From: a virus
Direction: 5' to 3' (one strand)
Virus record (IMG/VR): IMGVR_UViG_3300042154_001407
Span: 1-20,237 of that record
DNA length: 20,237 nucleotides
The notes beneath the pieces were generated by a model that searched no databases, was not told where the DNA came from, and was given only the letters and a program-made list of their open reading frames with translations. The position numbers and the translations under genes are program-made. This document shows positions 5,524 to 17,978 of the stretch, one piece after another. Within the stretch, counting starts at the first letter, position 1. Each line of letters begins with the position of its first letter.

Positions 5524-8500
5524 TTACGAAAATCTTGAAATATTACGAACTTTAGTGTTGCCAGTTTTTTTAGTTTCCATAATGTGCATTACTCCACCAA
5601 CTATTTCACCAAGTTCAATGTTAGATTCTGGTTTGTTTTTGATTACATTTTTTAAGTCTTGTAACTCTGAAACTATCATGTCTGTACTCCATGAACCTAC
5701 ATTTAACTGCATTGCACCATCACCTTTACGCATAACTTCACCTCTATGAAAATCCTCTGCTAATTTAGCAATTTCAAGGTTAGATAAATCACCTATTTTA
5801 CTATTTAATGCTTTTGGAATAACTCTTTCGTTAGGGTGTAATACAGCGTGAAAACCTCCTTTACCATCAACTCCTTGTCCATTGCTTCCTGTATCTTCTG
5901 TACCGTCAAAATAAGCAGGTAATCCATTTGATACAGTATTTGCTAATTGATTTAATAAGGTAATATCAGTAAGCGTTTTTGTAAATGGATTCTCACCAAC
6001 TTTAGCATTTTGAATATTATTTGAGTATGCCTGAAATACAGTCATTGCAATTTGCAGTTTCTGAATTGATTTTTGCTCATTAATCTTTTGTTTTTCAGTT
6101 TCTAGTTGTTGAACATCAAGCTGTGCTAAAGACTCTTGTGCTTGTATGCTACCTGATACTGCTTTTTCACGTAGAAAGTCAGCTTGTGTAGACATACGTT
6201 CCATACGTTTATCAAGTATATCAATTCTACGTTCAGCTAAATTAATATAATGCTCCAAAGACTTTTGAATTAAGTTGTTTACTGATTCGGCGGTATTTTT
6301 AATAATTTCTAATCTTTTTTCAGCACGTATTAATTCAAGTTTATCTAGTGTATCTTGCATTTTTTCTACTGAATCACGCTTAATATTAGCCATATTTTTT
6401 TCATGGTTTTTTTGTAGCCCTTCAATTTCCAAGTTAGTATCTTCTTGACGTTTTATGTCGTTTTCATACACTTGTGCTTTTTCTTTATCTGCACCTTCTT
6501 TTATTTGTTTAGCATAATCTTTATTTATTTCAAGTTGTGCTTTTAAATTTTCAATTTCAGCTTTTAACTCTTGTTTTCCAGACTTACTTAAATTTTTCTT
6601 TTTAAGATTTATTCTTGCATCAACTAACTTGCGTTCTGTATCTGATTGAATTTCTGATAATTGTTTTAATTTTGTTTTTTCTTGTTCTTCTACTGCTATT
6701 AATTCATCATTAAATGTTTTAGTATCACGAATCTTTTTATCTTCTTTTTCAGCTTGAAATCTTTTTTCTTCAAACTCTTTTTTAGCTTTTTGCTCTAGTT
6801 CTATTGCAGTTTGAACTGCACCTGCACTATATTTACCAGTAAGATTTACAGATTTTTCTTCTTTATCTAATGCAATTCTAGTTTTATCAATAGCCTCTTG
6901 CATTTTATCTTCTGATTTTATCTTATCAATATCTTTTAATATTTCAAGTTGTCTACTTAGGTAAATGTTTGTTTTATTATATTCTACATTTAAGTCACGA
7001 ACTTCTTTAGTGTGTTCTAACACTCCTTTAACAATAGGGTCTGGAGTGTAATCTTTTTTACCTCTGCCTTTTACTGGTATTGTTAAAGATTTTTTATATT
7101 CTTTTTCAGCATCTTTTGCTATTTTTTTTATACTATTATATGTTGCAGTTAAAGCGTTTAGTTCTCTTAAAATCTCATTTTCACCTCTAGCACCTATTGG
7201 GTCTAATAAATTTGAAGCATATTTTGAAAGTTTAGATTTTTCTAAGAATGATAAATATTCATAACCTATTAAATCCATTGCTAATTTAGCGTCTTGCAAT
7301 TGCCTTTGTGTTATTTCATAAGCAATTCTAGCTTTATCTTTCGCTAATTTCTTATCTAAAGTTTCATTAATTCCAGCATAAGACGCATTTAATTGGTCTG
7401 TAAACTCTTTTTCATCTTTAAGATTTTTTATAGTTGTACCATACTTGCTATTAATTTCATCAATAATTTCAGCCCTTCTTTGACTTTCATAGTTTGTGTT
7501 TTCTAAGGCTTCAAATAATGATTTTAACTCTAACTTCTCTTTGCTTGAATCTAAAATTAATTCGTTTTCATTTGTTTTTAATTCATTTCTATATTCTTTT
7601 ATTTTATTTCTAATTGACTTTAATTTCATTTCGGTAACAGCAAATTCAGTCACCATTAAAGCGAAAATACCTATAAAGTTTTTATATAAAACATCACCTA
7701 AGTTTGATGCAGAGTTTTTAATACTATCTAAAACTCCAGCAAATCCTTTCCCATTTCTAATACCTTTTACAAACGCAGAGTTCATTAATTCTTGCGATAA
7801 AGCACTTACTTTAATCACAGTATTATAACTTACCCATATATGTAATAAAGTCCCTACAAATGATATTATAGGCTTAATATTTCTTCCTAACGTAAGTAGG
7901 ATAGTAGATAAAGTTTCATTTAACCCAACACCTTTTTGTACATTATCAAAGTATAAAGCAATTTCAGTTTTAAGTACGTTAAAAGCACCGCCTAAGGTAT
8001 GTAGTCTAGCACTTGCTTTAGAACCAAATGCAATCTCTAATTCAGTAGCAAACGCTGGCATAACATCATCTGCTAGTACCAAACCTTTTTTCATTAAGTC
8101 ATTTAATTGAGCTTCTGATACACCCATTGATTTAGCCATGATACCAAAAGCCCCAGGCAATCTTTCACCTAATTGTTGTCTTAATTCCTCTGCGGAAACT
8201 GTACCTTTAGAGAACATTTGAGATACAGCACGTAAAGCACCTTCGGTGTCTTGATTAGATAAAGCTAACGCAGAACTTGATTTGATAATGCTTTCATAAA
8301 TTCTTTTACGTTCACTTAATGATAAGTTAGAAGATTCAGTAGATGCTATAAATCCTTTATAAGTACCCATTAACACTAATAAATCTTGACCGTACGACCT
8401 TGACATTTCAGTTAGAAACTTAAAGTTCTTTCCGTATTCTATTGAACTCCCAGATACATTCTTTAAAGATAGGTTTAAACTATCTAATTTTATTTGAGTA

Positions 8501-9204
8501 TCTAATAAATATCTAATACCATCAAACACCCCAAAAGCAAGTCCTAATTGCATTAAAGCATTCTTTAATCCACCTATTGCTTTTTGGTAATTACCTACAT
8601 TACGGAAGTTATCGCCTACTGTACTATCAAGTTTTTTAAGTGCTTTATCACCTTCAATTGCTGATTTAGTGGTTTCTTTATATTGTTTACTTAACTTATA
8701 ATATTCAGCTGAATTTTTCTTGCCTTGTTTTTCAAGTTCAAGCATTTCAGCACCCAACCTTTTACTTTCGTTCTTTAAATCACGAGTGTTATCGGATAAT
8801 TCTTTGTAAGCACCTGAAAGTTTCTTTTTATTAGCTAAAGCACGCTCATCAGATTTATTTATTTGTTCTTGTGTTTTTAGTGCTTCACGCTTAGTTTTTT
8901 CTTCTTCACGTAATGCTTGTTCGGAAGTCTTTTTAGCTTCACGAATTGCAATCTCATTGGCTTTATTTACTTTAGTTTGAGTTTCAACAGCACTAGTTAA
9001 TTCCTTAACCTTAACAATCAAGTCGTTAATTTCCTTTACATTGTCAGTTTTAACGCTTTTTAATTCTTTTTTAAAAGACGTTCCAACTTTTACTAGTTCT
9101 TCGTTTAGTTCAGAAATCTTAGTTTTTGCTAATTCTGCACTATCTACAACTATTTTAAATATATCACCTTCAAATATATCGGAACTCTTAATTTTTTCAC
9201 TCAT
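5524..9204 (-). CDS. Tail tape measure protein
   Basis: At 1226 residues this is the longest gene here. It sets tail length by spanning the tail lumen and is delivered into the cell with DNA. Residues ~1-200 are charged coiled coil. Residues ~240-420 match the tape_meas_nterm domain: MSRSYGQDL, the TYKGFIAST helix, then SKGTVSAEELRQQLGERLPG (~332-351) and KGLVLADDVMPAFATELE. Hydrophobic stretches near 215-235, 440-465 and 510-530 could enter the inner membrane. Residues ~540-1100 are again long Lys/Glu-rich helices. The C-terminal part contains GGFHAVLHPNERVIPK, a motif often found near the end of tape measures. The gene starts just after the presumed tail-chaperone gene and its ATG lacks a Shine-Dalgarno site. 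No lysozyme or peptidase motif was recognised inside it. Confidence 0.94.
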   Translation of the reverse strand: MSEKIKSSDIFEGDIFKIVVDSAELAKTKISELNEELVKVGTSFKKELKSVKTDNVKEINDLIVKVKELTSAVETQTKVNKANEIAIREAKKTSEQALREEEKTKREALKTQEQINKSDERALANKKKLSGAYKELSDNTRDLKNESKRLGAEMLELEKQGKKNSAEYYKLSKQYKETTKSAIEGDKALKKLDSTVGDNFRNVGNYQKAIGGLKNALMQLGLAFGVFDGIRYLLDTQIKLDSLNLSLKNVSGSSIEYGKNFKFLTEMSRSYGQDLLVLMGTYKGFIASTESSNLSLSERKRIYESIIKSSSALALSNQDTEGALRAVSQMFSKGTVSAEELRQQLGERLPGAFGIMAKSMGVSEAQLNDLMKKGLVLADDVMPAFATELEIAFGSKASARLHTLGGAFNVLKTEIALYFDNVQKGVGLNETLSTILLTLGRNIKPIISFVGTLLHIWVSYNTVIKVSALSQELMNSAFVKGIRNGKGFAGVLDSIKNSASNLGDVLYKNFIGIFALMVTEFAVTEMKLKSIRNKIKEYRNELKTNENELILDSSKEKLELKSLFEALENTNYESQRRAEIIDEINSKYGTTIKNLKDEKEFTDQLNASYAGINETLDKKLAKDKARIAYEITQRQLQDAKLAMDLIGYEYLSFLEKSKLSKYASNLLDPIGARGENEILRELNALTATYNSIKKIAKDAEKEYKKSLTIPVKGRGKKDYTPDPIVKGVLEHTKEVRDLNVEYNKTNIYLSRQLEILKDIDKIKSEDKMQEAIDKTRIALDKEEKSVNLTGKYSAGAVQTAIELEQKAKKEFEEKRFQAEKEDKKIRDTKTFNDELIAVEEQEKTKLKQLSEIQSDTERKLVDARINLKKKNLSKSGKQELKAEIENLKAQLEINKDYAKQIKEGADKEKAQVYENDIKRQEDTNLEIEGLQKNHEKNMANIKRDSVEKMQDTLDKLELIRAEKRLEIIKNTAESVNNLIQKSLEHYINLAERRIDILDKRMERMSTQADFLREKAVSGSIQAQESLAQLDVQQLETEKQKINEQKSIQKLQIAMTVFQAYSNNIQNAKVGENPFTKTLTDITLLNQLANTVSNGLPAYFDGTEDTGSNGQGVDGKGGFHAVLHPNERVIPKALNSKIGDLSNLEIAKLAEDFHRGEVMRKGDGAMQLNVGSWSTDMIVSELQDLKNVIKNKPESNIELGEIVGGVMHIMETKKTGNTKVRNISRFS

Positions 9205-9205
9205 A

Positions 9206-9649
9206 TCAACTTATATTACTTTGTTTTTCGTATTCTTCCATTATAGAGTAAAACTCCGTAACAGTTATAACTTTCCAATCTAATCTATAGCCAAGCCACT
9301 TTCCTAAGTAGATTAAAGTTTTTTCAATACTCAATCCAGATTCAGAAGTTTTCTGTAAAGATACAATTTTAGCATCTTCTATTTCTATTTGTGTCAACTT
9401 GAAATCATCTTTTGTAATCAAAAACTCACATTGCAACAACGCTTTTTTCTTTAGAATATCCAAATACTTCTGATATTCTTTATTTACTCCACGTTTTTGT
9501 AAGAACTCATCATACAATTTGTTGAACGCTTCTTGATTATCCGTTTCTTCTTTAAGTTCTAAATGAACATACTTTAACTCTCCGCTCAAGCATTTCTGCC
9601 AATTAAACAAAGGTATTTCATCAATCGATTGATAATGTCTTTCTTGCAT
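9206..9649 (-). CDS. Conserved Bacteroidota phage protein upstream of tape measure (tail assembly chaperone candidate)
   Basis: A 147-residue acidic, helix-rich protein. Its opening QERHYQSIDEIPLFNWQKC, the central ALLQCEFLITKDDFKLTQIEIEDA and the end LIYLGKWLGYRLDWKVITVTEFYSI resemble a family I recall directly upstream of tape measure genes in Bacteroidota phages. In siphophages this slot usually holds the tail assembly chaperone, which binds the tape measure while the tube polymerises; function is inferred from position only. The start at 9649 lies 29 nt inside the upstream gene, and the conserved-looking N-terminus right after this ATG supports an independent start. The stop is one base before the tape measure ATG. 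Confidence 0.68.
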   Translation of the reverse strand: MQERHYQSIDEIPLFNWQKCLSGELKYVHLELKEETDNQEAFNKLYDEFLQKRGVNKEYQKYLDILKKKALLQCEFLITKDDFKLTQIEIEDAKIVSLQKTSESGLSIEKTLIYLGKWLGYRLDWKVITVTEFYSIMEEYEKQSNIS

Positions 9650-10091
9650 ACTTAATCATTCTTATTTTTATTTCATTCTTTAAAGCCGTCATACTTTCTT
9701 CCGTTAAACCTACAATATCATTACCATATTGCTCAAATAGATTTGTAGTGCCTAAAAAATTAGTCTTATTAGCATCCGCATCTACTTCAAAACCATCATT
9801 CATTACTTTTATAAACATAGAATTAAAAAATGTTCCTGTATCAAACAATGTGTAATGACTACCTGCTTTTTTTACAGGATTTATTTGCTCTGTAAGTTGA
9901 GAGTAGCGACCTATAACATTTCCCTTTGCATTTACTCCTAAGTCAATTAACTGGTGTTTTTGAATCAAATATTCAATTACATATTCTTGAACTTCCCTGT
10001 CAAATGAATATAACCAAGCATCAATCTCTTTTAAGAGTTTAACTTCTTTTAGTTTCTTAACCAAATCAGTTTTAGCAAAAAGGTCTTTCAT
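9621..10091 (-). CDS. Tail completion / minor tail-type protein
   Basis: A 156-residue basic protein after the tail-tube gene. Residues ~78-105 (SHYTLFDTGTFFNSMFIKV) resemble the 'L-x-DTG-x-F-x-x-S' segment of virion morphogenesis or gp10-like neck/tail completion proteins; the C-terminus is a helix rich in Lys and Arg (NEIKIRMIKYARKTL). A role in capping the tail or joining it to the head is inferred. It begins after a terminator-like hairpin, so its expression is expected to be lower than that of the tube gene, or it has its own start: a TACCTTTG box lies 4 nt upstream of the ATG, but without a properly spaced TTG. It overlaps the next gene by 29 nt. Confidence 0.58.
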   Translation of the reverse strand: MKDLFAKTDLVKKLKEVKLLKEIDAWLYSFDREVQEYVIEYLIQKHQLIDLGVNAKGNVIGRYSQLTEQINPVKKAGSHYTLFDTGTFFNSMFIKVMNDGFEVDADANKTNFLGTTNLFEQYGNDIVGLTEESMTALKNEIKIRMIKYARKTLSID

Positions 10092-10102
10092 AATTCAAAG
10101 GT

Positions 10103-10131
10103 AAAAAAAAAGAGGTACAAATTAATGTACC
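10103..10131 (-). terminator. Intrinsic terminator after tail tube gene
   Basis: On the minus strand a perfect 6-bp stem, GGTACA with TGTACC, encloses a 6-nt loop and is followed after two bases by a run of nine T (plus-strand A at 10103-10111). It lies between the tail-tube stop (10157) and the next gene (10091). It fits a partial or full Rho-independent terminator that lowers transcription of downstream tail genes relative to the tube protein. The stem is short, so read-through is likely. Confidence 0.66.
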
Positions 10132-10156
10132 CCTTCCTTAAATGTTTATTTAAAAA

Positions 10157-11083: not shown

Positions 11084-11111
11084 AAAGAAAAGAAGGGGAG
11101 TTACCCTCCCC
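11084..11111 (-). terminator. Hairpin/terminator after the capsid gene
   Basis: On the minus strand GGGGAG (11111-11106) pairs with CTCCCC (11100-11095) around a GGTAA loop, extended by GAA/TTC past a bulged T, and is followed by a T-rich tract (TTCTTTTCTTT). It sits just after the capsid stop codon at 11119. It may end most capsid transcripts or protect their 3' ends. The T tract is interrupted, so termination is probably partial. Confidence 0.62.
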
Positions 11112-11118
11112 ATTCAAA

Positions 11119-12330
11119 TTAAGGTTTTAATAATGCAGTTTTTGCAGTAGAGAAAGTTCCTTTAACAAAAGCATTGTAGTGATTAGATTTCACATAATGA
11201 ACCGCACGTGCTTCACACAAGATTGTCATTAAGTTTTTAGTGAAGTCATCATTTACATAACCAACTTGGATATTCAAATCCTCTCTAATACGTAAGTTAG
11301 ATTTAGTAAAGTCACCAACTAAGAAAGTACCAGCAGTCATACCAACATTTTCGATAACTGGAATACCTTTAACTCTAGTAACTCCGTTAGCATCAACATA
11401 TTGCATAGCATAAGTGTACTCACCTGTAGTTGTTTTGTTTAATTGCATTTTAACTGCATCCTCTGGGTGAAGAACAATATAGTTAGCATTAAACAATCCA
11501 GTTTGAATTTGTGCGATAGCTACAGCTAAAACGTCAAACTCGTTAGGAGATACATAAGCTAAAGCAAAGTTACCAGCAGCCCAAGCAACAGCATTTTGTA
11601 AGATACCAACTAAGTTATCTCCAGCACCGTCACCAGAAAGGATTTGAGAATCTAATTTCAATTCAACGATTTCCATCAACTCATTGTTAATTTCATTACG
11701 CATGAATGGTAAATCAGCAATCATTTCTTTAGAAACTTTAATCCATGCAGTAACTTTTTTAACTGCTACAGAAGTTTCAACTACATTGAAGTCAGCTTGT
11801 GATTTTAATGCACCCTCTGCTGTCATATCAGCACCACCTTCTTGTCCACTAGACTGAATGTAAGTGATATACTTAGAAGTTGTACCAGAAGCATTAACTA
11901 ATTGACGTAAGAAAGGCATTCTACGTGCAATACGAGTAACACCAGCTTCTAATTGCGATAAAGCAACTGTACCACCAGAGTAGTTGTTCGTAATTGACAT
12001 TGTACCTACTGCTTTAACGTCAAGGTTCATTAAACCACCTTTTTCAGCGATGTCCTTGATTTTGTCAATAGAGTCAGAATAAGCATCAGCGATAGCTTGT
12101 CCGATAGATTTCAAAGTAACATTTTTTGAAGTTTTTTCTTCTTTCATTCCTTCTACTAAACCTTCCAATTTTGCAATTGCAGATTTAACTTCGGAGTTGT
12201 CAGATTTACCTTCTAAGTCTGTTAATTGATTTTTCAACGCTTCTAAGTCTGTTTTAGAAACGGAATTTGCTGTTTTTTCAGCGACAATTGAGTTTACTTT
12301 CTCAATTACTTGTTCTGGAGTCATTTCCAT
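11119..12330 (-). CDS. Major capsid protein, HK97 fold
   Basis: A 403-residue protein with the layout of HK97 gp5-type capsid precursors. Residues ~1-85 are a charged, helix-forming segment (EQVIEKVNSIVAEK, then KTDLEALKNQLTDLEG) like the delta/scaffold domain that the adjacent protease removes. From ~125 the capsid fold follows: LSQLEAGVTRIARRMPFLRQL, then a glycine-rich E-loop-like region, VKKVTAWIKVSKEMIADLPF, and the LDSQILSGDGAGDNLVGIL segment that is very typical of this family. The C-terminal third includes the P-domain-like YIVLHPEDAVKMQL and VLVGDFTKSN-type strands. It follows a 97-nt leader without genes and is followed by a hairpin, which fits high-level expression. A second ATG two codons in (12324) is possible. 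Confidence 0.93.
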   Translation of the reverse strand: MEMTPEQVIEKVNSIVAEKTANSVSKTDLEALKNQLTDLEGKSDNSEVKSAIAKLEGLVEGMKEEKTSKNVTLKSIGQAIADAYSDSIDKIKDIAEKGGLMNLDVKAVGTMSITNNYSGGTVALSQLEAGVTRIARRMPFLRQLVNASGTTSKYITYIQSSGQEGGADMTAEGALKSQADFNVVETSVAVKKVTAWIKVSKEMIADLPFMRNEINNELMEIVELKLDSQILSGDGAGDNLVGILQNAVAWAAGNFALAYVSPNEFDVLAVAIAQIQTGLFNANYIVLHPEDAVKMQLNKTTTGEYTYAMQYVDANGVTRVKGIPVIENVGMTAGTFLVGDFTKSNLRIREDLNIQVGYVNDDFTKNLMTILCEARAVHYVKSNHYNAFVKGTFSTAKTALLKP

Positions 12331-13773: not shown

Positions 13774-14538
13774 TTATTTAATATTAGTTACAACTTTACT
13801 CCAGTCAAAAGATTTTTCTTCTTCTGTAGGCTCGATTATTTTTTTAACGTCCATTGCTTCGATATTCATACTTGCAATTTCAGAAAGTTGAGAAGTCAAG
13901 AACTTATGTCGCATTTCAAGTGAATATAAACTATCATCTGTACGACTTCCATTTCCTAACGCTTTAACAATAGTGTCCATCTCTTTTGTGATAGTAGTGA
14001 TAATCTTAGTTTTTTCTTCTGATTTACCAACTTCTAATACTGGAGTCATTTCGTTAGCACCAAATGTTACTGCTGAACCTTCCCAAAGTGCTACCTCTGA
14101 AACTAAGTAATATCCACCACCATCTTTGGTTTCGTCTTCAATCCACTTAATCTTATCAGCTAGATATTTAAAACCAATAGAATGCTCACGGATAATTCCA
14201 TCTTGATAATCACATAAAGCGTCATTACCTAAGGTAGAACTTCCAAGTTCACCTACAGCATATAATCCATTTTCGTCTTCTTTAAGTTCAACGAACTTTC
14301 CTATTTGCATTTTCCAGTCATGGTGTCTTAGGAAAGCAATTTTTCTATTTGAAGAAGAATCACAACCTCTTTCTTGTAAAGACTTAGAAAAAGCACCTTT
14401 TACAATCATATCTTGGTCGGAATCAATATTCCCAAAGTGTGCTAAATACATTGCTACCTTACGAGATTTAGCATCAACATCCTTAATTTCTAAAGAATGT
14501 GATTTAATTTTATAGGTAGAATTAAGTTTATTATTCAT
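13774..14538 (-). CDS. Prohead (capsid maturation) protease, peptidase S78 / HK97 gp4-like
   Basis: This 254-residue serine protease cleaves capsid precursors inside the prohead. All three catalytic positions expected for the S78 family are visible: His in FLRHHD (H73), Ser in REHSIGF (S120) and Glu in SEVALWEGS (E148), with the flanking AVTFGANEM that normally ends the protease core. The N-terminal VAMYLAHFGNIDSDQDMIVKGAF is also typical. Residues ~170-254 form a charged helical tail that may act as a scaffold or capsid-targeting piece. It opens the leftward head operon; a TACATTTG promoter-like box lies 20 nt before its ATG. It is separated by only 39 nt from the divergently oriented portal gene. 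Confidence 0.92.
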   Translation of the reverse strand: MNNKLNSTYKIKSHSLEIKDVDAKSRKVAMYLAHFGNIDSDQDMIVKGAFSKSLQERGCDSSSNRKIAFLRHHDWKMQIGKFVELKEDENGLYAVGELGSSTLGNDALCDYQDGIIREHSIGFKYLADKIKWIEDETKDGGGYYLVSEVALWEGSAVTFGANEMTPVLEVGKSEEKTKIITTITKEMDTIVKALGNGSRTDDSLYSLEMRHKFLTSQLSEIASMNIEAMDVKKIIEPTEEEKSFDWSKVVTNIK

Positions 14539-14545
14539 ATTTACT

Positions 14546-14553
14546 TAAATTTG
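14546..14553 (+). promoter_or_regulatory. Candidate -7 box for the portal gene
   Basis: TAAATTTG fits the Bacteroidota -7 consensus TAnnTTTG and lies 24 nt before the portal ATG at 14578. There is no exact -33 TTG at the usual spacing; the closest match is a TTA at 14523-14525. It overlaps the left half of an inverted repeat (ATTTGT-TGT-ACAAAT, 14549-14563). Confidence 0.45.
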
Positions 14554-14558
14554 TTGTA

Positions 14559-14566
14559 CAAATGTA
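14559..14566 (-). promoter_or_regulatory. Candidate -7 box for the protease/head operon
   Basis: On the minus strand TACATTTG fits TAnnTTTG and lies 20 nt before the protease ATG at 14538. No exact TTG is present at -33 (a TTA is the nearest). It overlaps the right arm of the palindrome at 14549-14563 and faces the portal promoter box, so polymerase could probably use only one of them at a time. Confidence 0.42.
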
Positions 14567-14577
14567 AAAAAATTATT

Positions 14578-15813
14578 ATGAGTAACCCTTCTTTTTGGAA
14601 TGCTTTTTTCGGAACACCTATAAATAATAATCAACTTAGGGAAATAAATACCTTATTAGATACTAATAGAGCATATCAACATGACTTCTATGGTAAAAAA
14701 GTTCCAATCTGGATGAATACCGAAAAACCATTTCAAGCATACGTTGAAATACCAGAACTTAGAACTGTAGTAGATAAGAAGGCTCAAATGCTTTCACAAG
14801 GTCGTCCACGATTGATTAAAGAAAGTGATGGTACTGAAATTGAATCTCATTGGGTACTTGACCTTATTAAGAATCCTAATCCAATGCAAACTTGGCAAGA
14901 CGTAATGTATTCTATATCCGTTAACGATAGTTTATTTTCTACTGCTTTATGTTATGCACCAAGAAGAAGTTTTGGAATAGTTAATTTATTTGTTCCACTT
15001 GCAAGGCATAAGGTTCAAATCAATACTTCTGGTAGAACTCTTAAACAAATGGATAAAGGTGGTCTTATTAAAGATTATACTTATAACTATGAAGGTGAAA
15101 AGCCAGAAACACTAACAAATGAAGAAGTAGTTATCATTCAAACTACAGATGGTGTGAATATTTTAGATTCTATATCAAGAATTGAGTCTTTAAAGTACCC
15201 ATTATCTAATATTAAGGCACAATACAACAAACGTAACATACTTTTAGAGAACATTGGTGCTATTGGTATCTTATCTGCTTCAAACTCTGATTTAGGAGGT
15301 GCTTTACCAATGAGTCCAGAAGAAAAAGAACAAATACGTAAAGATTGGTATAATCGTTCTAAAGATGAGATTATTATTTCTGAAAACGATGTTAAATGGA
15401 CTCCAATGTCATATCCTACTAAGGACTTAATGTTGTTTGATGAACTTAAAGCTGATAAACTTGCTATTATAGATGCTTTTGGTCTTAACTACTATATTTT
15501 CTCTAACGAAAGTGGTTCTACTTACTCTAACGTAAACTATGGTGAGAGATTATGCTACACTTCTACTATTATTCCAGAGTCAGAACGAATTTATAACAAC
15601 ATTACTGAACAACTTGGATTAGATAAAGAAGGTTTAAGATTAGTTGCTGATTACGGACACCTTCCAGTATTGCAAGACGACATCTTACAAGAAGCACAAA
15701 GTATAGACTATAGAGCATCTGCTTTAATCAAGATTGAAAACGACCTTGGAATTACTTTAAGTGATGAAGAAAAGAAATTATTTTTGCGTTTAAAGAAAGG
15801 AGTTAATAGATAG
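14578..15813 (+). CDS. Portal protein, HK97 family, on the opposite strand to all other genes
   Basis: A 411-residue protein; start chosen at the first ATG (an upstream TTG at 14551 would overlap the promoter box). It forms the dodecameric ring through which DNA enters the head. Typical portal features: EIPELRTVVDKKAQMLSQG (~58-75), HWVLDLIKNPNPMQTWQDVMYSI (~91-113), the NIKAQYNKRNILLENIGAIGILSA stretch, SPEEKEQIRKDWYNR, and a C-terminal FDELKADKLAIIDAFGLNYYIFS followed by a NYGERLCYTSTIIP segment. Length is normal for the family. In most HK97-like phages it is co-directional with terminase and protease; here it lies between them but is reversed. It has its own -7 box and its own terminator, so it forms a monocistronic unit. 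No frameshift or truncation is seen, and codon use looks like that of its neighbours. Confidence 0.92.
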   Translation: MSNPSFWNAFFGTPINNNQLREINTLLDTNRAYQHDFYGKKVPIWMNTEKPFQAYVEIPELRTVVDKKAQMLSQGRPRLIKESDGTEIESHWVLDLIKNPNPMQTWQDVMYSISVNDSLFSTALCYAPRRSFGIVNLFVPLARHKVQINTSGRTLKQMDKGGLIKDYTYNYEGEKPETLTNEEVVIIQTTDGVNILDSISRIESLKYPLSNIKAQYNKRNILLENIGAIGILSASNSDLGGALPMSPEEKEQIRKDWYNRSKDEIIISENDVKWTPMSYPTKDLMLFDELKADKLAIIDAFGLNYYIFSNESGSTYSNVNYGERLCYTSTIIPESERIYNNITEQLGLDKEGLRLVADYGHLPVLQDDILQEAQSIDYRASALIKIENDLGITLSDEEKKLFLRLKKGVNR

Positions 15814-15833
15814 TTGTTTCATTACATTATATA

Positions 15834-15862
15834 GGGAGTGGATTTTATCTACTCCTTTTTTT
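15834..15862 (+). terminator. Intrinsic terminator of the portal gene
   Basis: GGAGTGGAT (15835-15843) pairs with ATCTACTCC (15847-15855) around a TTT loop, nine pairs with one G-T wobble, followed directly by seven T (15856-15862). It begins 21 nt after the portal stop. This is a well-formed Rho-independent terminator on the plus strand. Confidence 0.86.
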
Positions 15863-15869
15863 GTGCATT

Positions 15870-15909
15870 AAAAAACCCCTCAAGCCAGAATCAACAGCGA
15901 GAGGGGTTT
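15870..15909 (-). terminator. Intrinsic terminator facing the portal terminator (terL / candidate sRNA end)
   Basis: On the minus strand AAACCCCTC (15909-15901) pairs perfectly with GAGGGGTTT (15881-15873) around a 19-nt loop and runs into six T (complement of 15870-15875). The T run follows on the minus side only; the plus side has just TTT then A. It therefore stops leftward transcription coming from terL or from the promoter at 15970-15997 before it runs antisense through portal. Confidence 0.82.
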
Positions 15910-15969: not shown

Positions 15970-15997
15970 CAAATATAATCTTTTTTTATATATCCAA
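15970..15997 (-). promoter_or_regulatory. Bacteroidota-type promoter overlapping the end of terL
   Basis: On the minus strand TTG (15997-15995) is followed by 17 nt and TATATTTG (15977-15970). This matches the TTG-N17-23-TAnnTTTG consensus of Flavobacteria and relatives at every defined base. The TTG lies inside the last terL codons (AGG TTG GAT ATA TAA). Downstream there is no coding sequence before the terminator at 15870-15909, so the product would be a short RNA. Confidence 0.6.
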
Positions 15998-17422
15998 CCT
16001 TTTAAATAAAGATTTAATCAACATTGACAATCCAGCAAGACAATCTGGTGCATCATCGTTTTTCATTTTACCTTCCTTACTAAAAGATAATAGATTAGTC
16101 ATAAATTGGTGATAATCGTTATTATTCTCATATTTCACGAATACAAAAGCGTTATTTATACTTGCTGACTGCATGATTATCCTTGTCATCTTATTTTGCG
16201 TATTATGCACTTGTAAAATCTTAGTTCTAGTTTGTTTTTGAAGTGTTCTAGCAAAGACAGCTCCCATTGCGTTACTTTCTACCCTACAATAAGAAGTTCG
16301 GTATCTATTTAACTTCTCTGCAATCAAAGGAATGGTTACATCAGTATTATTTTTGTTAAAACAATAATCTGCAATGTAAATTGTTCCATCAATAATAACT
16401 GCTAGTGCCATAGCTGTATAATCTGCTCCTTGGTCTGATACATCGACATAAGCAATACTTCCAGCACTTCTACCTTTGATAAGATTAAAGTCTGCTTCAC
16501 TAATAGTACGTAAATTAGAGAATAAACGACCTTTTAAATCGACTGGTTCTTGCATATACTCTGCACTCCAAATATCTGGATTGATTTTCTTACGAATCAT
16601 CTTATATTGGTCTGTAGACATTACATCAGCACAAAAAGTTTCTTCATTTGAATCTAAGGCTGGAATAACTATCGATTCATCATAACTGCCTTCTTGGAAA
16701 TTCTTGCCTATAACATCGTTTGTCGACCATCTCGTACCAATATCAATCTTAGCACACGTTCGTTCAAGACGAGAGTCGTGAGTACCTTCTTTCCATTGTA
16801 AAACCCTATCATTGGTAACATCGGATAGTGCATCCTCAATACCACGATACAAGTCATCGGTAATAGCAAGTTTTGTAGCACCAAAACCGATAATTGTTCC
16901 ACCTACACCAGCACCAAAATAACCTACTTGACGAGATTTATTAGTATTCCAACCATTAAGGTTTGCTTTATCATTAGAAATAGTTACATCTGGAAATACA
17001 GAATTAAACTTTTCTGATTTTAACACTTGACGTACATCGTAAGAGAACTTTTGATATAGAGTTCCAGTACAAGTGTTACGCATAACAGACTCAGAAGGAT
17101 TCCTACCTAAAGTCCACGCACAAAATAATGTTGTTATATATGATTTTCCGCCCCTTGGTGGCACTGAGACCGATAAAGAGTTAATCTTACCTTCCTCAAT
17201 TCTTTGGAAGGCTCTAGCGACACGTTGCAAGAATTTACGTTTAAGAAAAAAGTCTTTGTCATAAAACTTACAAAACTCCCAAAAGTCATCTTTACCTAAC
17301 TTGGCTCTAAGATGGTATTCCAGTGCTTTCCTCGCTTCCTCCTTCGTTGCTGTCTTCTGTTCCTTCTCCGAGTGCAAGTTCTTGTTCTCTAAAGTAGTCT
17401 GGTTCATCATCGTCATCGTCAT
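15986..17422 (-). CDS. terL: Terminase large subunit (ATPase/nuclease)
   Basis: A 478-residue packaging motor that docks on the portal, pumps DNA and cuts it. ATPase half: Walker A VPPRGGKS (~87-94), Walker B KLAITDD (~184-190), coupling-type motif IGTRWSTND (~228-236). Nuclease half (RNase H-like): acidic residues in AYVDVSDQG (D327), VESNAMG (E382) and KNDDAPDCLAG (D456-D460). The start is uncertain: four ATGs occur in the first six codons (17422, 17416, 17410, 17407) and no later ATG precedes the conserved part (~residue 35 on). The first 116 bp lie inside the small terminase gene in another frame; in that overlap the large-subunit frame uses AAG, GAG, ACG, GCG and AGG codons that are otherwise rare here. 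Transcription ends at the hairpin at 15870-15909. Confidence 0.94.
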   Translation of the reverse strand: MTMTMMNQTTLENKNLHSEKEQKTATKEEARKALEYHLRAKLGKDDFWEFCKFYDKDFFLKRKFLQRVARAFQRIEEGKINSLSVSVPPRGGKSYITTLFCAWTLGRNPSESVMRNTCTGTLYQKFSYDVRQVLKSEKFNSVFPDVTISNDKANLNGWNTNKSRQVGYFGAGVGGTIIGFGATKLAITDDLYRGIEDALSDVTNDRVLQWKEGTHDSRLERTCAKIDIGTRWSTNDVIGKNFQEGSYDESIVIPALDSNEETFCADVMSTDQYKMIRKKINPDIWSAEYMQEPVDLKGRLFSNLRTISEADFNLIKGRSAGSIAYVDVSDQGADYTAMALAVIIDGTIYIADYCFNKNNTDVTIPLIAEKLNRYRTSYCRVESNAMGAVFARTLQKQTRTKILQVHNTQNKMTRIIMQSASINNAFVFVKYENNNDYHQFMTNLLSFSKEGKMKNDDAPDCLAGLSMLIKSLFKRLDI

Positions 17423-17978
17423 TTAATAGTGCTTTAATATCTTCTTCTGAAAAGTTGCTTATATCAACTGTAACATTTTTACTTTCCACTTCTTGTGCGT
17501 GTGGTTTGTAGGCATTATCCATTAATGCTTTATAGGCATTTACATCACCTTTGAGTGCTTTTTGTAAAATAGCTAGTGTCATTTGATATTCTATAGGAAT
17601 ATATGACTCAATACCAGTAATAGGGTCTTTTCCCCATCGTGTAGCTTCCAAAATAGCACGAACTACTGTACTTCTATTCAATCTGCCTTTAGGTCTACCA
17701 CCAAGGTTTCTTTTAGGCACATCGGTTTGTTCAACTTCTATAGGTTCATCTTTTTTAGTCACATCGTCTGGTTTAGGTACTTTTAGCGGGTAAAGTGCTT
17801 CTTTTACGTCTTTTTCGCTGTATTTGTTCCTAAATTGTACTTTTTCGATGAAAGAAAGTCCTTCATCACCACGTTTTTTAGGTTTTATAACGTATTTACC
17901 ACGCTTAGTACCAGCTTTTACACCTCTAGCTTCGGTAGTTTTCCTTTTAGCTCTGGTTCTTTTAGGTTTTTCTTCCAT
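17307..17978 (-). CDS. terS: Terminase small subunit-like DNA-recognition protein
   Basis: A 223-residue protein immediately upstream of the large terminase. The N-terminal ~45 residues are very basic (RTRAKRKTTEARGVKAGTK). Residues ~92-170 hold the core NLGGRPKGRLNRSTVVRAILEATRWG, then IPIEYQMTLAILQKALKGDVNAYKALMDNAYKPH, which resembles the DUF5681-like small terminases of Bacteroidota phages; GRPKG is an AT-hook-like DNA-binding motif. The C-terminus is strongly acidic with five successive Asp, then Gly/Ser/Glu-rich; that end is dual-coded with terL. It begins with a TAATG junction to the upstream gene. It probably recognises the packaging site and stimulates the motor; the recognition site was not identified. 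Confidence 0.78.
   Translation of the reverse strand: MEEKPKRTRAKRKTTEARGVKAGTKRGKYVIKPKKRGDEGLSFIEKVQFRNKYSEKDVKEALYPLKVPKPDDVTKKDEPIEVEQTDVPKRNLGGRPKGRLNRSTVVRAILEATRWGKDPITGIESYIPIEYQMTLAILQKALKGDVNAYKALMDNAYKPHAQEVESKNVTVDISNFSEEDIKALLNDDDDDEPDYFREQELALGEGTEDSNEGGSEESTGIPS

Follow-up and report, generated by a model that had tools for sequence, protein, structure and literature searches.

In the uncultured viruses analysed here, probably siphophage-like phages of Bacteroidota, the portal gene of an HK97-type head module keeps its normal slot but is read alone from the opposite strand. Judged from the sequences compared, this inverted layout is an old, inherited and fixed architecture that has been reversed at least once within the family. 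It is probably a heritable inversion of a single gene, in which the portal flipped together with its promoter, the protease and capsid genes use a box of their own on the other strand, and the late head genes are consequently read as three transcripts.

The head module and its inverted portal gene

The window, i.e. the whole 20.2 kb stretch of DNA that was analysed, is a single IMG/VR viral contig fragment. Its recognized head and tail genes are the following:

14578-15813, plus strand: portal gene, HK97-type (PF04860), opposite in direction to all other head and tail genes
15986-17422, minus strand: TerL, the terminase large subunit (PHROG terL, 3e-73), convergent with the portal gene
13774-14538, minus strand: head maturation protease S78 (2e-21), which opens the protease-capsid unit
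11119-12330, minus strand: major capsid protein, HK97 fold family (PF05065, 9e-36)
5524-9204, minus strand: tape measure, recognized by Pfam or PHROGs

The 14578-15813 frame encodes 411 residues from an ATG start and matches the Pfam Phage_portal family (E 4e-25) as well as PHROG portal families; an earlier note on this DNA had placed a portal gene here, alone on the opposite strand, and both the gene call and its coordinates are right. No family match was obtained for the frame called "terS" (17307-17978). Portal, S78 protease, capsid and TerL genes are adjacent in the window, the same genes, order and protein families as in the HK97-type module (terS-terL-portal-protease-capsid on one strand) of e.g. 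the Flavobacterium Lillamyvirus and Muminvirus and of the window's co-directional relatives. Unlike that module, the window is not co-directional: the portal, between terL and protease as usual, deviates in its strand alone, and protease and capsid genes have a promoter box of their own.

Related loci were sought in IMG/VR with the portal of the window, with four diverged ones and with a profile built from 16 sequences, and also among public phage records, which yielded 204 loci and, once duplicates were merged, 161 non-redundant ones. A locus was scored as inverted when its portal ran against all those of its neighbours terL, protease and capsid that could be scored. By this measure 88 loci are inverted and 72 co-directional, one is unscorable, and none is mixed. 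The inverted order persists in members whose portal is only ~50% identical to that of the window; the more distant isolated flavophages Danklef, phi19:1, lillamy and snusmum are all co-directional. In bacterial genomes the provirus scan with a single sequence returned no loci and the profile scan two, both co-directional. One of these two, L146 (RFQY01000125.1), is a phage contig binned in a Rhodobacteraceae MAG, probably wrongly, as both its relatives and its promoter boxes are indicative of Bacteroidota. In another locus, L029 (3227-3628), the portal frame looks interrupted near its 5' part in comparison with the relative L017; the match begins 403 nt past the protease gene, reflecting either a sequencing error or a broken gene.

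The earlier note had allowed that comparison of gene order and strand might expose an assembly error, or relatives that all carry the normal orientation; instead, many independent contigs are inverted and both orders are common. Nothing inside the window alone, which is one IMG/VR fragment, excludes a portal segment flipped in assembly or binning, but the same junctions are shared by dozens of other contigs, which come from different samples and diverge to 50% portal identity, and the divergent gap holds a coherent two-box promoter. The chance of such an artefact is negligible, and recurrence among relatives led to its rejection as the source of the inversion.

Promoter boxes and terminators around the portal gene

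The -7 box of Bacteroidota sigma-A promoters is TAnnTTTG, placed at -12 to -5 (PMC9723704). Boxes of this form and hairpins with terminator character flank the genes of the window as follows:

14546-14553, plus strand: predicted portal promoter -7 box TAAATTTG, with predicted +1 at 14558 and a 20-nt leader; conserved in inverted and co-directional relatives
14559-14566, minus strand: predicted protease/capsid operon -7 box TACATTTG (plus-strand letters CAAATGTA), with predicted +1 at 14554 and a 16-nt leader; faces the portal box
15833-15862, plus strand: predicted portal transcript terminator, hairpin of -13 kcal/mol with T-run; region z -5.9
15870-15907, minus strand: predicted terL transcript terminator, hairpin of -15 kcal/mol with T-run
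11095-11111, minus strand: terminator-like hairpin after the capsid gene, GC-rich with a T-rich tail

Both boxes match TAnnTTTG and lie within 21 bp of the 39-bp divergent gap between protease and portal. The two are oriented towards each other in the window's subclade, TAAATTTG-TTGTA-CAAATGTA, and their predicted starts are 4 bp apart. This spacing agrees with that of bidirectional promoters, in which core elements on opposite strands lie so close that polymerase can bind only one of them at a time. The earlier note had correctly located the promoter-like box at 14546-14553, which proves to be enriched among relatives, and a strong terminator at 15834-15862, where the hairpin and T-run begin one position earlier; the opposing box at 14559-14566 and the terL terminator had been missed. 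No preferred spacing of TTG upstream of the boxes was seen that would indicate a -33 TTTG/TTG element, the gap holds no tRNA or Rfam element, and a canonical sigma-70 scan found 34 matches, below the 44.7 expected from shuffles.

Boxes were counted in the protease-portal gaps of 38 representative inverted lineages against dinucleotide shuffles of the same gaps. A portal-directed box is present in 33 lineages (shuffle mean 4.7), leaving five in which the exact box is absent; a protease-directed box is likewise present in 33 (shuffle mean 3.5), and both occur together in 30 (shuffle mean 0.44). In 13 of the 38 the boxes are arranged back to back at a 10-bp offset, CAAAnnTA-NN-TAnnTTTG, as against 0.01 expected. 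Among co-directional clusters, 23 of 27 have a box just upstream of the portal (2.7 expected by shuffling), and opposite boxes occur in 3 of 27, no excess over chance. A pre-protease box is found in 6 of 27 co-directional clusters by a looser count; it is clearly intergenic only in L054, L100 and L204 (3 of ~29 clusters), and four other such hits fall at the start of the protease gene itself. Among the late genes tested, a consistent box precedes only the portal, in inverted lineages the protease, and a single tail gene (18/28). The last of these, a TAnnTTTG box within 10092-10156 of the window and also seen in relatives, precedes a 156-residue tail gene (9621-10091) and is itself preceded by a terminator-like hairpin at 10139-10106; it is probably a tail-module promoter common to both orientation groups.

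Since co-directional relatives carry the portal box, the portal promoter appears to be ancestral and the promoter of the protease and capsid genes the acquired element. The earlier note had viewed the portal's own promoter as part of a regulatory unit made by the inversion; the promoter is indeed present, but its box, found in 23 of the 27 co-directional clusters, would predate the inversion rather than result from it.

Because a predicted promoter and a predicted terminator are both present, the portal gene is very likely a transcription unit of its own. Terminators are detectable after the portal in 10 of 30 inverted lineages and after terL in 4 of 30, compared to one terL-portal gap among 27 co-directional relatives; in some inverted lineages the convergent gap is only 23-31 bp. 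The hairpin at 11095-11111 suggests a site of termination or attenuation for the capsid transcript.

Among inverted members the portal-terL gap takes up cargo and varies in length between ~20 bp and 3.7 kb. Free-standing HNH or NUMOD4-HNH-AP2 endonuclease-like frames of 154-181 residues immediately follow the inverted portal, on its strand, in L003, L014, L015 and L026 and are absent from the window; runs of small genes occupy the gap in L032, L033, L044 and L062. A calcineurin-like metallophosphoesterase of ~290 residues is found in the terL-portal gap of both inverted (L084) and co-directional (L054/L055) members, and its gene is always in the terL direction, whichever way the portal points.

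History of the orientation changes

The descent of the two orders was examined in a tree of TerL, portal, protease and capsid from 59 representatives (1486 columns, SH-aLRT support). Support is 99 for the main co-directional clade and for the window's inverted clade, and 100 for a second inverted clade, and the well-supported branches force at least three switches of orientation; portal, terL and protease trees taken singly need three to four. L100, which is co-directional, is nested in an inverted clade beside L077 with support of 100 and most plausibly represents a return to the co-directional order, with the caution that it is one contig without terL. The co-directional L054 and L055 are the sister group to eight inverted loci, a position that allows change in either direction. 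The root of the family is insecure, the outgroups being very distant and on long branches, and rooting with them is not trusted. Both one old inversion followed by reversions and two independent inversions are possible; the differences in promoter geometry between subclades are slightly in favour of multiple events. A protease box is present in L100 and in L054, the two nested co-directional lineages, but as a trace of reversion it is only suggestive. As a diagnostic scar the box was rejected, being present also in L204, a main co-directional lineage.

Several orientation changes in the family's trees could also reflect an active invertible segment, in which a recombinase flips the portal within the population and switches its expression on and off by phase variation; invertible promoters are known to be abundant in Bacteroidota (e.g. 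PMC8748976, PMC4747536). Such a segment is nevertheless highly improbable. No long or strong pair of inverted repeats joining both portal junctions was found in the window and six relatives, nor was any near-identical pair of opposite orientation found; the nearest, L077 and L100, are 81% identical in portal amino acid sequence, and the opposite pair L054 and L046 are at 74%. Moreover, the portal is essential and its promoter is kept either way round, so that a flip would not turn it off. Lacking both flanking repeats and a close opposite-orientation pair, the invertible segment was rejected, and slow evolutionary flipping is indicated in place of phase variation.

Possible consequences for head gene expression

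The heritable inversion would have started from an ancestral unit of promoter, portal, protease and capsid, transcribed from a -7 box of sigma-A type that followed terL. The portal would then have flipped with its box as one cassette, and the protease and capsid genes would be read from a separate box, opposite in strand but within the same short portal-protease gap. The outcome would be three late-head transcripts: terL with its own terminator, portal alone with its own terminator, and protease to capsid. Where the divergent boxes overlap tightly, the site would take one RNA polymerase at a time, and the two promoters may for this reason be coupled rather than independently set in dosage or timing.

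A dosage role for the inversion is plausible. The inversion may also be a neutral accident with no regulatory benefit, tolerated since the portal always had its own promoter, and this reading has a substantial chance of being correct although somewhat below even. Because co-directional relatives have the portal promoter, a flipped portal would stay expressible, and a return to the co-directional order has occurred at least once, in L100; against neutrality are the very long persistence of the inverted order across strongly diverged lineages and the conserved tight two-box geometry, which suggests selection on at least the promoter layout. In a dosage device, overlapping divergent promoters would compete for polymerase and set the ratio of portal to protease-capsid message. 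The mutually overlapping boxes of most inverted lineages would suit such a device, as would the constant 10-bp offset seen in one set of them and the facing layout in the window's clade, but the geometry varies between subclades and co-directional relatives do without overlapping promoters; it is possible yet rather unlikely. Steric exclusion is known from bidirectional promoters of E. coli, which do not allow simultaneous binding; at the five tested, basal activity was too low for polymerase competition (PMC12825309), a result that favours neutrality, and a dosage effect therefore cannot be assumed. The strict form of the proposal, in which the flipped portal and two-box promoter act as a ratio-setter such that each portal message costs one protease-capsid message and stoichiometry is fixed at one DNA site, is speculative and unlikely.

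The single-gene inversion shares features with two known systems. In phage P2 (NC_001895) the portal is likewise divergent from the capsid genes, with adjacent promoters and a shared activator site; pP serves terminase P and portal Q, and pO serves scaffold O, capsid N and further genes. In P2, however, portal and large terminase subunit share an operon that diverges from the capsid genes, whereas here terL is on the capsid strand, convergent with a one-gene portal unit; and P2 starts are ~110 bp apart, in contrast to the predicted 4 bp here. Bacterial bidirectional promoters (Warman/Grainger; PMC12825309) similarly have pseudo-symmetrical core elements on both strands where one polymerase excludes the other, as is predicted here, but the present boxes are of the Bacteroidota TAnnTTTG type and are adjacent or facing rather than formed from one shared -10. 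No earlier description of a portal flipped alone, or placed on a compact bidirectional Bacteroidota promoter, was found in the open-access literature searched. The parts are thus known and their arrangement is new.

Few features of tailed phages are as conserved as the gene order of the HK97-type head module, and the difference between 12 portal copies and capsid copies in the hundreds is usually put down to assembly, not transcription. Inverted portals of the kind described here should not be taken for assembly errors by annotation pipelines. The gap between portal and protease offers an example in phages of a conserved Bacteroidota-type bidirectional promoter, as predicted from its boxes, and a family in which the portal has been flipped, long kept and at least once reverted is a natural comparison set for the transcriptional separation of portal and capsid.
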